Part shown: positions 10,338 through 30,880 of the stretch, piece by piece
How positions within the stretch are numbered: the first letter of the stretch is position 1
Layout: every line of letters begins with the position of its first letter
Origin: Candidatus Aminicenantota bacterium
GTDB taxonomy: Bacteria > Acidobacteriota > Aminicenantia > Aminicenantales > UBA4085
Assembly (NCBI GenBank): GCA_026393865.1
Contig: JAPKZI010000231.1
Location: 1-38,929, forward strand
Length of the DNA stretch: 38,929 nucleotides
Direction of reading: 5' to 3'
The notes under the pieces: model-generated
The model's database searches: none
What the model saw: the letters and a program-made list of their open reading frames with translations, nothing else
What the model was told of the DNA's origin: nothing
Made by a program: the position numbers and the translations under genes

Positions 10338-12122
10338 TTACATGCTTACGGTTAAAGATTTATTGTCATTCAATCGTTTGACTTTTGCAAGGAATTCGCC
10401 CGTCTCCACCGGTCCCTTGTCGCCCTGGCCGTGGACGCGGAGCGAGGCGGTGCCGGCCACCACCTCCTTGTCGCCGACGACCAGGATGAGCGGGATCTTG
10501 TGGAGCTCGGCCTCGCGGATCTTGTAATTGACCTTCTCCCGGCGTTCATCGACCTTGGCCCGGAGACCGTTCTCGTCGAAGAAGGCCTCGAGCTTGCGGG
10601 CGTATCCGACGTGCCGGTCGGCGATGGGCAGGATCAGGATCTGGACGGGCGCCAGCCAAAGCGGGAAAGCGCCGTTGTAATGCTCGATGAGGACCCCGAA
10701 GAACCGCTCGAGGGACCCCAGCAGGGCCCGGTGGACCATGTACGGGCGGTGCTCCTTGCCGTCCTCGCCGACGAAGGTCATGTCGAACCGTTCGGGATTG
10801 TTGAAGTCGAACTGGATGGTCGTGCACTGCCAGAGGCGGCCGATGGCGTCCTTGACCTTGATGTCGATCTTCGGGCCGTAAAAGACCGCCTCGCCTTCCT
10901 TCCGCTCATAGCTCAGGCCGCGGATCTCGAGAGCCTTGACCAGGGACGCCTCGGCCTGGCGCCACATGTCGTCGACCCCGCAGTACTTTCCCGGGTTCTT
11001 GGGGTCGCGGACGGAAAGCTCGATCTTGTTGTCGACGAAGCCGAAAGCGGCCAGGATGTCGATCGAAAAGTCCAGGACGCGCAGGATCTCGTCCTCGATC
11101 TGGTCGGGCGTGCAGAAGATGTGGGCGTCGTCCTGGGTGAAGCCGCGGACGCGCAACAGGCCGTGGAGGACGCCGCTCCGCTCATAGCGATAGACCGTCC
11201 CCAGCTCGGCCCAGCGTAGCGGGAGGTCCCGATAGGACCGGCCCCGGGACTTGTAGATGGAGATGTGAAAGGGGCAGTTCATCGGCTTGGCGTAATAGTT
11301 CTGCCCGTCGATGTCCATCGGCGAATACATCGAGTCCTTGTAGAAATCGAGGTGGCCCGATGTCTGCCAGAGCCGTTCCCGGCCGATATGGGGGGTATAA
11401 AGGACGTCGTAGCCGCCCTTCCAATGCCGCTCTCGCCAGTACTGCTCGATGATCGCCCGAATTCGGGCGCCCTTCGGGTGCCAGAGAACGAGCCCGCTGC
11501 CGACGTTCTCGTCGAAGCTGAAGAGATCCAGTTCGGGCCCGAGCCGGCGGTGATCCCTTTTCTTGGCCTCCTCGAGGAGGAGGAGGTAGTCATCAAGCTC
11601 TTTCTGTGTCGGGAAGGCGGTCCCGTAGATGCGCTGGAGCTGCTGGCCTCTCTCATCGCCTTTCCAATAGGCTCCGGAGACGGACAGGAGCTTGAAATGC
11701 CGGATAGCCCCGGTCGAGGCCAGGTGCGGCCCAAGGCAGAAATCGAGGAAACTCCCCTGCCTGTAACAAGTGACGGAGTCGCCTCCCTTATCCCGGATGA
11801 GCTCGACCTTGAGAGTCTGGCCGCCGTCCGCGAAGAGCTTCAAGGCCTCTGCCTTGGTCATGGTCACTTTTTCGATGGGGACATTCTCGGCGGCGAGCCG
11901 GCGCATTTTCTGTTCGATCTCGTCAAGGTCCTGGACGCTGAACGTCTCGGCGCGCAAAAAGTCGTAAAAAAAGCCGTTGTCCACGGCCGGCCCGATGCCG
12001 ACCTGGGTCCCGGGGAAGAGATCGAGAACGGCGTGGGCCAGGAGGTGGGAGGCGCTGTGCCTCAAGACCTCCAGTTCGCTCTCCGCCTCCTTGTCCGCAT
12101 TCCTCTTATTGTCGTTGTCCAT
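10338..12122 (-). CDS. thrS: Threonyl-tRNA synthetase lacking the N-terminal TGS domain
   Basis: EVLRHSASHLLAHAVLDLFP, GSGLVLWHPKGARIRAIIEQYWR, MNCPFHISIYKSRGRSYRDLPLRWAELGTVYRYERSGVLHGLLRVRGFTQDDAHIFC. Confidence 0.96.
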   Translation of the reverse strand: MDNDNKRNADKEAESELEVLRHSASHLLAHAVLDLFPGTQVGIGPAVDNGFFYDFLRAETFSVQDLDEIEQKMRRLAAENVPIEKVTMTKAEALKLFADGGQTLKVELIRDKGGDSVTCYRQGSFLDFCLGPHLASTGAIRHFKLLSVSGAYWKGDERGQQLQRIYGTAFPTQKELDDYLLLLEEAKKRDHRRLGPELDLFSFDENVGSGLVLWHPKGARIRAIIEQYWRERHWKGGYDVLYTPHIGRERLWQTSGHLDFYKDSMYSPMDIDGQNYYAKPMNCPFHISIYKSRGRSYRDLPLRWAELGTVYRYERSGVLHGLLRVRGFTQDDAHIFCTPDQIEDEILRVLDFSIDILAAFGFVDNKIELSVRDPKNPGKYCGVDDMWRQAEASLVKALEIRGLSYERKEGEAVFYGPKIDIKVKDAIGRLWQCTTIQFDFNNPERFDMTFVGEDGKEHRPYMVHRALLGSLERFFGVLIEHYNGAFPLWLAPVQILILPIADRHVGYARKLEAFFDENGLRAKVDERREKVNYKIREAELHKIPLILVVGDKEVVAGTASLRVHGQGDKGPVETGEFLAKVKRLNDNKSLTVSM

Positions 12123-12167: not shown

Positions 12168-12272
12168 GACAGCGGCCGGGGCCCCGGGCTTTGCCCGGGG
12201 GTCCACTTCCGCCGTACTCGCCCGTGGATATAAGCCAATGGCGAGTGGCGAGCCGAAGGCTCGTCCCTTGAC
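12168..12272. repeat. Family B element, copy 1 (~105 bp, multi-hairpin)
   Basis: Near-identical in reverse complement to 30693-30796; hairpins ccccgggc/gcccgggg, cgagcc/ggctcg and an imperfect actcgccc..(t)ggcgagt stem. Confidence 0.85.
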
Positions 12273-12467: not shown

Positions 12468-12532
12468 ATAGTTGCCGTTTAGAGCGGATACATCTTAATG
12501 AAAACACCTTATAGAGTCAATTAAAAATCGTT

Positions 12533-12682
12533 CGGGGGAGGCCGCCCGTCACCACGCGGATTTTCCCCAGCGCGGAAAATCCGCTCGGACCTCGCTCTCG
12601 CGCTCTCGGAAAAACTTCGTTTTTCCGAACCGTGCCCGCGCTCGCTCTCGGACGGGCTCCGGGCGGCATTCCCCCTCGCTCA
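12533..12682. repeat. Family C MITE-like element, copy 1
   Basis: Inverted copy of 13789-13943; imperfect terminal inverted repeats (GGGGGxxGCCGCCCGTC .. GACGGGxtCCGGGCGGCAtxCCCCC) and two internal hairpins. Confidence 0.8.
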
Positions 12683-12759
12683 AACGAAAATAAAGAAATA
12701 AAAAAAAAAGGAGAAACGAATTTCTTTAGCCACTCAATATGTACGGCTTTATAAACCAG

Positions 12760-12881
12760 GCCGAGATGGCGGGGTCGCCCCCAAGGCTCCCATAGCGGAG
12801 GGGGGTCCCCTCGGCTTAGCCGAGGGGGGAACCGACGGGACTGGTTCCCCAGGGAGCCGGGGGCGACCCTGTCGTCTCGGC
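12760..12881. repeat. Family A element, copy 1
   Basis: gccgagatggcggggtcgccccc ... gggggcgaccctgtcgtctcggc imperfect TIRs; core catagcggaggggggtcccctcggcttagccgaggggggaaccgacgggactggttcccc. Confidence 0.85.
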
Positions 12882-12913
12882 GACAAGTTCCGTAATTCTG
12901 TTATAATTAGCTT

Positions 12914-13287: not shown

Positions 13288-13390
13288 TCTGGCCCATCCG
13301 ATCAATCGGCGGCAGAAACCGACGTGGCGGCCGGTCCGGAAGCCCCTTCCCCCTGTTTCAAAGCTCCGCCCTGACAAAAAGAGATTAAAT

Positions 13391-13462
13391 GGGGACGACG
13401 CATCCTGTCCCCTAAAAAGAAAAGGCTAATTGGAGAATATGGGGACAGGATGCGTCGTCCCC
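13391..13462. repeat. REP-like family D, copy 3: perfect 22-bp inverted repeat with 28-nt loop (REPIN-like)
   Basis: ggggacgacgcatcctgtcccc ... ggggacaggatgcgtcgtcccc. Confidence 0.9.
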
Positions 13463-13504
13463 CTTAACCCAGCGTTCGAAGCGAGCGGGGTTCCCCAGAT
13501 GGAT

Positions 13505-13576: not shown

Positions 13577-13650
13577 CTTTTCTTGTATGCTTGCGAGCGA
13601 AGAAACGGGCGAATTCTCTTTCGGAAAAACACCAATCAGTTTCGAAGATG

Positions 13651-13767
13651 CGACGGCAGGGCTGGCCCTAAGGCCCCCATAGCGGAGGGGGGTCCCCTCG
13701 GCTTAGCCGAGGGGGGAACCGACGGGACTGGTTCCCCAGGGGGAGCGAATAGGACCCTCACAGCGTC
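13651..13767. repeat. Family A element, copy 2
   Basis: ggcccccatagcggaggggggtcccctcggcttagccgaggggggaaccgacgggactggttccccaggg, same orientation as copy 1. Confidence 0.85.
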
Positions 13768-13943
13768 GAACGCACTCAAAAAATTGGCTGGGGCGAGGGG
13801 GTATGCCGCCCGGAACCCGTCCGAGAGCGAGAGCGGGCATGGTTCGGAAAAACAGAGTTTTTCCGAGAGCTCGAGAGCGAGGTCCGAGCGGATTTTCCGC
13901 GCTGGGGAAAATCCGCGTGGTGACGGGCGGCATCCCCCGAGCC
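13768..13943. repeat. Family C MITE-like element, copy 2 (with left flank shared with 13505-13576)
   Basis: Reverse complement closely matches 12533-12682. Confidence 0.8.
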
Positions 13944-23801: not shown

Positions 23802-23830
23802 GGTCGTTCTCCTTACCTTTGGTCGGTCGA

Positions 23831-23950
23831 CGCGTCGACAGCATCGGCCCCCGGCTCCCTGGGGAACCAGTCCCGTCGGTTCCCCCCTCGGCGAAGCCGA
23901 GGGGACCCCCCTCCGCTATGGGAGCCTTGGGGCCAATCCTGCCGGCGCGT
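23831..23950. repeat. Family A element, copy 3 (inverted relative to copies 1-2)
   Basis: gcccccggctccctggggaaccagtcccgtcggttcccccctcggcgaagccgaggggacccccctccgctatgggagccttggggcc. Confidence 0.85.
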
Positions 23951-23993
23951 CCTTGGATCATCCACGAAGACAAATGAATGGAAGAAATCCATA

Positions 23994-30478: not shown

Positions 30479-30637
30479 GCCGAGATTCTATCACTCGCCC
30501 CAAACGCAGACAAGGGGGCTCGCTCGAAGTGGGCGAACGCTCTTATCGTCGCGGGGCCTGGTGACAAGATCGGGAATCGGCCTCGCTCCCGACTCTGGTT
30601 TTAACGCCGTTTTCTCTCCATCTTTTTCGGCTGCGAG

Positions 30638-30880
30638 GTCTTTGGTCGACGCGGCGACAGGGTGGCCCCCGGCCCCCTGGGGAACCAGTCCCGTCAAGGG
30701 ACGAGCCTTCGGCTCGCCACTCGCCCGTGACTTATATCCACGGGCGAGTACGGCGGAAGTGGACCCCCGGGCAAGCCCGGGGCCCCGGCCGCTGTCGGTT
30801 CCCCCCTCGGCCAAGCCGAGGGGACCCCCCTCCGCTATGGGGGCCTTAGGGCCAACCCTGCCGTCGCGGCCTTTGATCAA
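30638..30880. repeat. Family A element, copy 4, interrupted by a family B element
   Basis: A-family halves ggccccctggggaaccagtcccgtc | ggttcccccctcggccaagccgaggggacccccctccgctatgggggcc separated by 101 bp. Confidence 0.88.
30693..30796. mobile_element. Family B element, copy 2, nested inside family A copy 4 (non-autonomous, MITE-like)
   Basis: gtc-aagggacgagccttcggctcgcc...cccgggcaagcccggggccccggccgct-gtc; reverse complement of 12168-12272; gtc present on both sides, once in uninterrupted A copies. Confidence 0.75.

Follow-up and report, generated by a model that had tools for sequence, protein, structure and literature searches.

Palindromic elements that lie in frame within genes are best known from Rickettsia, and to our knowledge neither a target nor a mechanism of movement has been established for these Rickettsia palindromic elements (RPE). 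Their in-frame insertion into genes was described by Ogata et al. (2000, 2002), according to the summaries in the MITE review PMC10969869 (section 4.2) and in PMC3733652, and intragenic REPs have been reported from several species (Di Nocera et al. 2013, PMC3733652). REPs of the CGTC-tagged type have a stem of 8–9 bp that starts with a paired A-T, a loop of 4–5 nt, a CCA tail and the CGTC tag (PMC3733652). For Aminicenantes, full-text searches, the scope of which leaves most subscription papers outside, found no account of in-frame palindromic elements. Here we describe a repeat, B, of a Candidatus Aminicenantota genome, which is very probably a hairpin-rich non-autonomous mobile element, mobilised in trans, that inserts at GT|SGR and whose frame-keeping copies are retained in genes.

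A nested repeat in the window

The window, i.e. the whole stretch of 38,929 nucleotides that was analysed (contig JAPKZI010000231.1), contains three uninterrupted copies of a repeat that we call A. These copies (12758–12884 on the minus strand; 13650–13743 on the minus strand, with one arm diverged; and 23825–23960 on the plus strand) read CCCGTCGGTTCCCC, or its complement, at the empty site. The fourth copy (30645–30871, plus strand) is split by 101 extra bp and reads CCCGTC-(AAGGG...GCTGTC)-GGTTCCCC; the inserted DNA matches the reverse complement of 12168–12272 with an identity of about 96%. Comparison with the uninterrupted copies thus confirms the insertion of B into A that the original prediction had proposed, and a chance match is excluded because at least 42 distinct copies of B, at unrelated places (E down to 1e-47), and about 40 copies of A could be extracted from this genome.

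The focal B (30693–30793, plus strand; register GTCAAGGG...CCGCT) belongs to a 101-bp subfamily with a CAAG loop, and exactly these 101 bp are missing from the empty A copies. Because the GT is repeated, a register one dinucleotide later (30695–30795) is equally compatible. The left part of the interrupted A occupies 30645–30692 and the right part, which begins with the target bases GTCGG, 30794–30871, both on the plus strand. The free-standing B (12171–12272, minus strand) has the standard 102-bp form and differs in length from the focal copy by one nucleotide in a loop. Both are intergenic, the free-standing one lying upstream of an ORF that starts at 12122 on the minus strand. About 30 bp to the left of the focal A there is an empty copy of a third palindrome, D (30568–30612, minus strand; ACCAGAGTCGGGAGCGAGGCC on that strand). 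In Rfam neither A nor B of the window had a match at E up to 1.

Two other repeats of the window deserve mention. An inverted repeat of 157 nt, 92% complementary (12532–12688 and 13784–13940), brackets two of the A copies and the remnant of a phosphodiesterase-like gene. The palindrome GGGGACAGGATGCGTCGTCCCC is found at 1174–1234, 1628–1654 and 13388–13465; elsewhere it flanks the only RAYT-type Y1 transposase gene of the genome (L109:1477–2145) in inverted orientation (1348–1370 and 2146–2170), which is the typical REP-RAYT arrangement.

The A core, GGRACCAGTCCCGTCGGTTCCCCC...GGGNCCCCYTCCGCTAYGG, is present in 23 of the 59 Aminicenantes genomes searched, with many copies in several of them; it can also be written GAACCAGTCCCGTCGGTTC ... 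CCTCCGCTAYGG (A copies of the window; L059, L060, L077, L078, L288–L311). It lies within long outer stems whose sequence differs from place to place while the pairing is kept. When the consensus is folded, compensatory changes are seen in 8 of the 17 pairs, and an inner hairpin covaries as well. At other loci, too, Rfam gave nothing above threshold for A, only sub-threshold microRNA matches. Possibly, A is an undescribed family of structured RNA or of single-strand DNA.

Copies, distribution and structure of B

The copy numbers given here are lower bounds. For B, the genome search returned about 40 strong matches, with 40 of the 86 candidates scored. Further copies occur in relatives, and B was found in 10 of the 59 genomes searched within the order. 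A 33-base B pattern was also run against about 85,000 species genomes; the titled matches listed were Candidatus Aminicenantes, one MAG labelled Acidobacteria, which corresponds to G022 and is of the same order, and one contig labelled Spirochaetes. This last copy (L225, JAPLSM010000184.1) comes from Lake Pavin sediment, from which Aminicenantes genomes have also been assembled, and would represent either a transfer between phyla or a contig that is possibly mis-binned.

In a set of 97 de-duplicated copies from this genome and its relatives, 75 have a length of 102 bp. The other forms are mostly multiples of three as well: 63 bp, in which hairpin 2 has been lost, and 138, 141 and 180 bp, which carry extra modules; the one-base variants (101, 100, 137 and 179 bp) differ in their loops. 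A related 78-bp module, CACTCACCCGCG...CTGCCGCCGC, occurs both nested in B and free-standing (L090, L146, L234, L258); in L258 a related module sits at a GT|GGA target, as for B. The search for an autonomous element with B ends among the partial copies in relatives turned up nothing but nested modules, internal deletions and contig ends.

B folds into three hairpins (fold z about -6.3 on both strands), with stems of 12, 7 and 8 bp in addition to the short hairpin 1. Compensatory changes in 10 of the 27 stem pairs, a number reached in none of 500 shuffles (16 B-like modules from six genomes), support these predicted hairpins. Since several reading frames are used when B lies in a gene, what is conserved is the hairpin structure of the nucleic acid and not a peptide. 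There are no terminal inverted repeats: the left end, CAAGGGACGAGCC, does not match the complement of the right end, ACRGCGGCCGGGG.

Edges and target of B

As the original prediction had advised, B-like sequences were collected and their flanks aligned; the flanks are unrelated among copies, the edges are identical, and empty sites could be defined. To the left of B there is random sequence, then nearly always GT and then an invariant C (97/97), while the right end, CCGC(C/T), is followed by GT-S-G-A/G and then again by random sequence. Among the right-flank pentamers are GTCGA (28), GTGGA (18) and GTTGA (6), and of 81 right flanks 52 have GA after GT-N, where 13% would be expected (P 4e-27). 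The base that comes next after GT on the right may be C, G, T or A and is derived from the target; the left and right triplets are often unlike (GTC/GTG, ATC/GTG). Because empty orthologs fix the register, the third base can be assigned to the target on the right and to B's own C on the left. For example, the site in a phosphomannomutase gene reads GTGGGC when empty, and in the filled gene GTGGGC stands again to the right of B; the site in a methyltransferase gene reads GTCGAG in both states. For a GH28 gene (L165) and the sugar isomerase of G016 (L153), the empty homologs have diverged too far for the junctions to be placed to the base. B is inserted as a discrete unit, almost always of 102 bp, at GT|SGR (most commonly GTCGA or GTGGA), with GT on both sides.

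This bears on the 3-bp target-site duplication suggested earlier from the GTC that flanks B in the window. A GTC does stand on both sides of both window copies, but only the GT is a true repeat; the apparent duplication is a constant GT plus, on the left, the element's own C. A duplication copied from the target would be expected to differ between sites and to agree on the two sides, but the flanking dinucleotide does not change with the site. The opposite assignment, in which the left GTC would be all target and the right GTC all element, was dropped in view of the GTG and GTT copies and the empty sites, which show the third base to be the target's.

Three more copies of B (C85, C230, C146) lie exactly at A's own 5' GTC|GACGCGG, and among the about 40 A copies of this genome no other is interrupted at the focal internal site. 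Copies of B lie within B as well, at the internal GCGGCGGAAGT|GGACC (L182/L218, L173/L262), and copies of D related to that of the window carry B at GAGT|CGGGA in G000 (L002) and G001 (L274). Thus the empty A sites, the empty gene orthologs and the insertions into B and D all share the same edges, and the earlier proposal is upheld that B moved as one piece, into an A that was already there.

Insertions within genes

The statement that B encodes no protein, if taken to mean that it has no coding consequence, is not supported, for B has open reading frames and sits in frame inside genes. The 102-bp form amounts to 34 nearly stop-free codons, and a variant with a TTG loop is open in five of the six frames. 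The six-frame openness of B shows no excess over chance for its composition (P about 0.1), and for this reason we do not claim selection for it. Roughly 18 of the 97 copies lie in frame in genes that are otherwise intact, in several reading frames and mostly with insert-free orthologs. The count is approximate, for this class is defined by an imperfect hexamer coding score, in which the 90th percentile of non-coding sequence overlaps with weak coding scores. All 18 measure 102 bp, as against 75/97 overall (P 0.006).

The clearest view comes from eight ortholog pairs of G000 and G001 (about 90% identical where compared), in each of which one member is filled and the other empty, the length difference is 102 bp and the frame is kept. 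They encode a methyltransferase, a GlpA-like oxidoreductase, a 3-keto-disaccharide hydrolase, a phosphomannomutase, a MacB/FtsX-like permease, a sulfatase/TPR protein, a PhzF-like protein and a DUF985 cupin; the junction bases themselves have diverged in the pairs for the PhzF-like protein and the permease. In a ninth gene, for a sugar-isomerase TIM barrel, B is in frame in G016, and a related copy in G022, the upstream half of which differs, carries the 63-bp form in frame with private substitutions as in G016. Pfam matches to Methyltransf_23, 3keto-disac_hyd, Cupin_5, AP_endonuc_2 and Pect-lyase span the insert, and the PGM_PMM_II match is split exactly at it. The frame of the host gene is preserved with B in place, and the function of the host protein is probably retained. 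There is one clear frameshifting insertion, a 101-bp B, equal in length to the intergenic focal copy, between H and VSTDEVYG in an rmlB-like gene of G022 (L100). Because this copy shifts the frame, insertion is unlikely to be frame-aware; we infer that insertion itself is frame-blind and that retention depends on the frame.

Mechanism and alternatives

As the empty and filled sites show, B is inserted precisely at GT|SGR, though it has no terminal inverted repeats; we propose that it lands wherever this short target occurs, be it in A, in D, in itself or in genes. Within genes, the frame-keeping insertions would be the ones that persist, given that the length of the 102-bp form is divisible by three and that most of its frames are open, and the host protein would gain about 34 residues. 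Movement would most likely be due to an enzyme that acts in trans on the folded B, perhaps a single-strand Y1 transposase (IS200/IS605- or RAYT-like). Such a mover is suggested by the GAC at the 5' foot of hairpins 1 and 3, which could pair, over 2–3 nt only, with the flanking GTC. The search for a transposase with matching ends, which the original prediction had also advised, found none. The single RAYT gene of G000 is flanked by palindromes unrelated to B, the IS200 ends of G001 are equally unrelated, and G022 has no Y1 gene, yet carries B. Derivation from IS110 or IS607, which join DNA at a 2-bp core, was rejected since a matching transposase is not present in all of the six B-bearing genomes examined (IS110 only in G000, G001 and G006). 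None of the six has a serine recombinase, and the families of reverse transcriptases do not track B. The mover may have been lost, may be divergent or may lie in unassembled sequence (G000 is 86% complete). A bolder version, which we regard as doubtful, would have B found a gene-colonising class outside the Rickettsiales, with main modules in multiples of three (63, 102, 138, 141 and 180 bp) that were selected for entering genes in frame without harm, and with an enzyme that joins DNA at GT as the mover.

Three other explanations have to be weighed against this one. B could be a MITE of the classical kind, with a DDE transposase as its mover and a short duplication of the target, and the GTC on both sides of the two window copies, and of roughly half of all copies, would suit this. 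Yet the triplets on the two sides are often unlike, the dinucleotide stays constant from site to site, the empty sites assign the third base to the target and B has no terminal inverted repeats, so we give this largely refuted explanation little credence. Even less can be given to the idea that intragenic B goes untranslated, either because it is cut out of the RNA or because the ribosome skips it, for which the mitochondrial byps elements and a mini-intron would be analogues. The stability of the hairpins and the position of inserts inside conserved domains, e.g. the Rossmann fold of the methyltransferase, speak in its favor, but skipping needs neither a length that is a multiple of three nor open frames, whereas every in-frame intragenic copy has 102 bp; moreover, the 101-bp copy breaks the rmlB-like frame in G022, and no known self-splicing intron is nearly as short as B.

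Finally, recombination between repeats might have brought A and B together, or the A copies without B might have arisen by deletion from an ancestral A+B unit. Both repeats are multicopy and often neighbours, but identical B edges recur at dozens of unrelated sites, among them genes, D and B itself, and no other A copy of the about 40 has B at the focal site. As the gene orthologs of the sister genome lack exactly the element, these matched empty sites refute this scenario, to which we attach almost no probability.

With its nearly identical copies, which number in the dozens, the empty sites that match them in a sister genome, a defined target and insertions within other repeats, B makes two questions testable: which enzyme moves such elements, and whether inserts of 34 residues in conserved folds (B-encoded peptides would come from VKGRAFGSPLARGLYPRASTAEVDPRAKPGAPAAV) are tolerated. 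B also shows how selfish DNA could lengthen proteins in a distant phylum of bacteria.

Comparison with known systems

Non-autonomous elements derived from IS200/IS605 resemble B in that they lack terminal inverted repeats, have subterminal hairpins that share one orientation, and use a fixed short target with no variable duplication. However, no Y1 gene with B-like ends was found, the target of B is only GT with a preference for SGR, and G022 is without Y1. The MITEs are also short, non-autonomous, multicopy and sometimes intragenic, but they possess terminal inverted repeats and, usually, target duplications that vary from site to site, neither of which B has.

The CGTC- and GTAG-tagged REPs resemble B in that they are palindromic and sometimes located inside ORFs, and the CGTC type, again like B, has no known transposase (PMC3733652). 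They are, however, single hairpins of 20–40 bp with a CGTC or GTAG tag, and stems of 8–9 bp (CGTC type), and they form dimers, while B has 102 bp and three hairpins. B was rejected as a CGTC-tagged REP, as its stems differ and the target supplies the fourth base of what looks like a terminal CGTC.

The closest likeness is to the RPE: both are short palindromic multicopy repeats, many of which lie in frame in unrelated, apparently functional protein genes, and for both the mover is not known. B is found in Aminicenantes rather than Alphaproteobacteria, is GC-rich and measures about 102 bp as against about 150 bp; it also uses several frames, has a defined GT|SGR target with matched empty sites and inserts into itself. 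With its multicopy hairpins in the range of 100–150 bp and its in-frame insertions into genes that have insert-free orthologs, B appears to work like an RPE, outside the Rickettsiales and with a defined target, the likeness being one of kind, as judged by these features.
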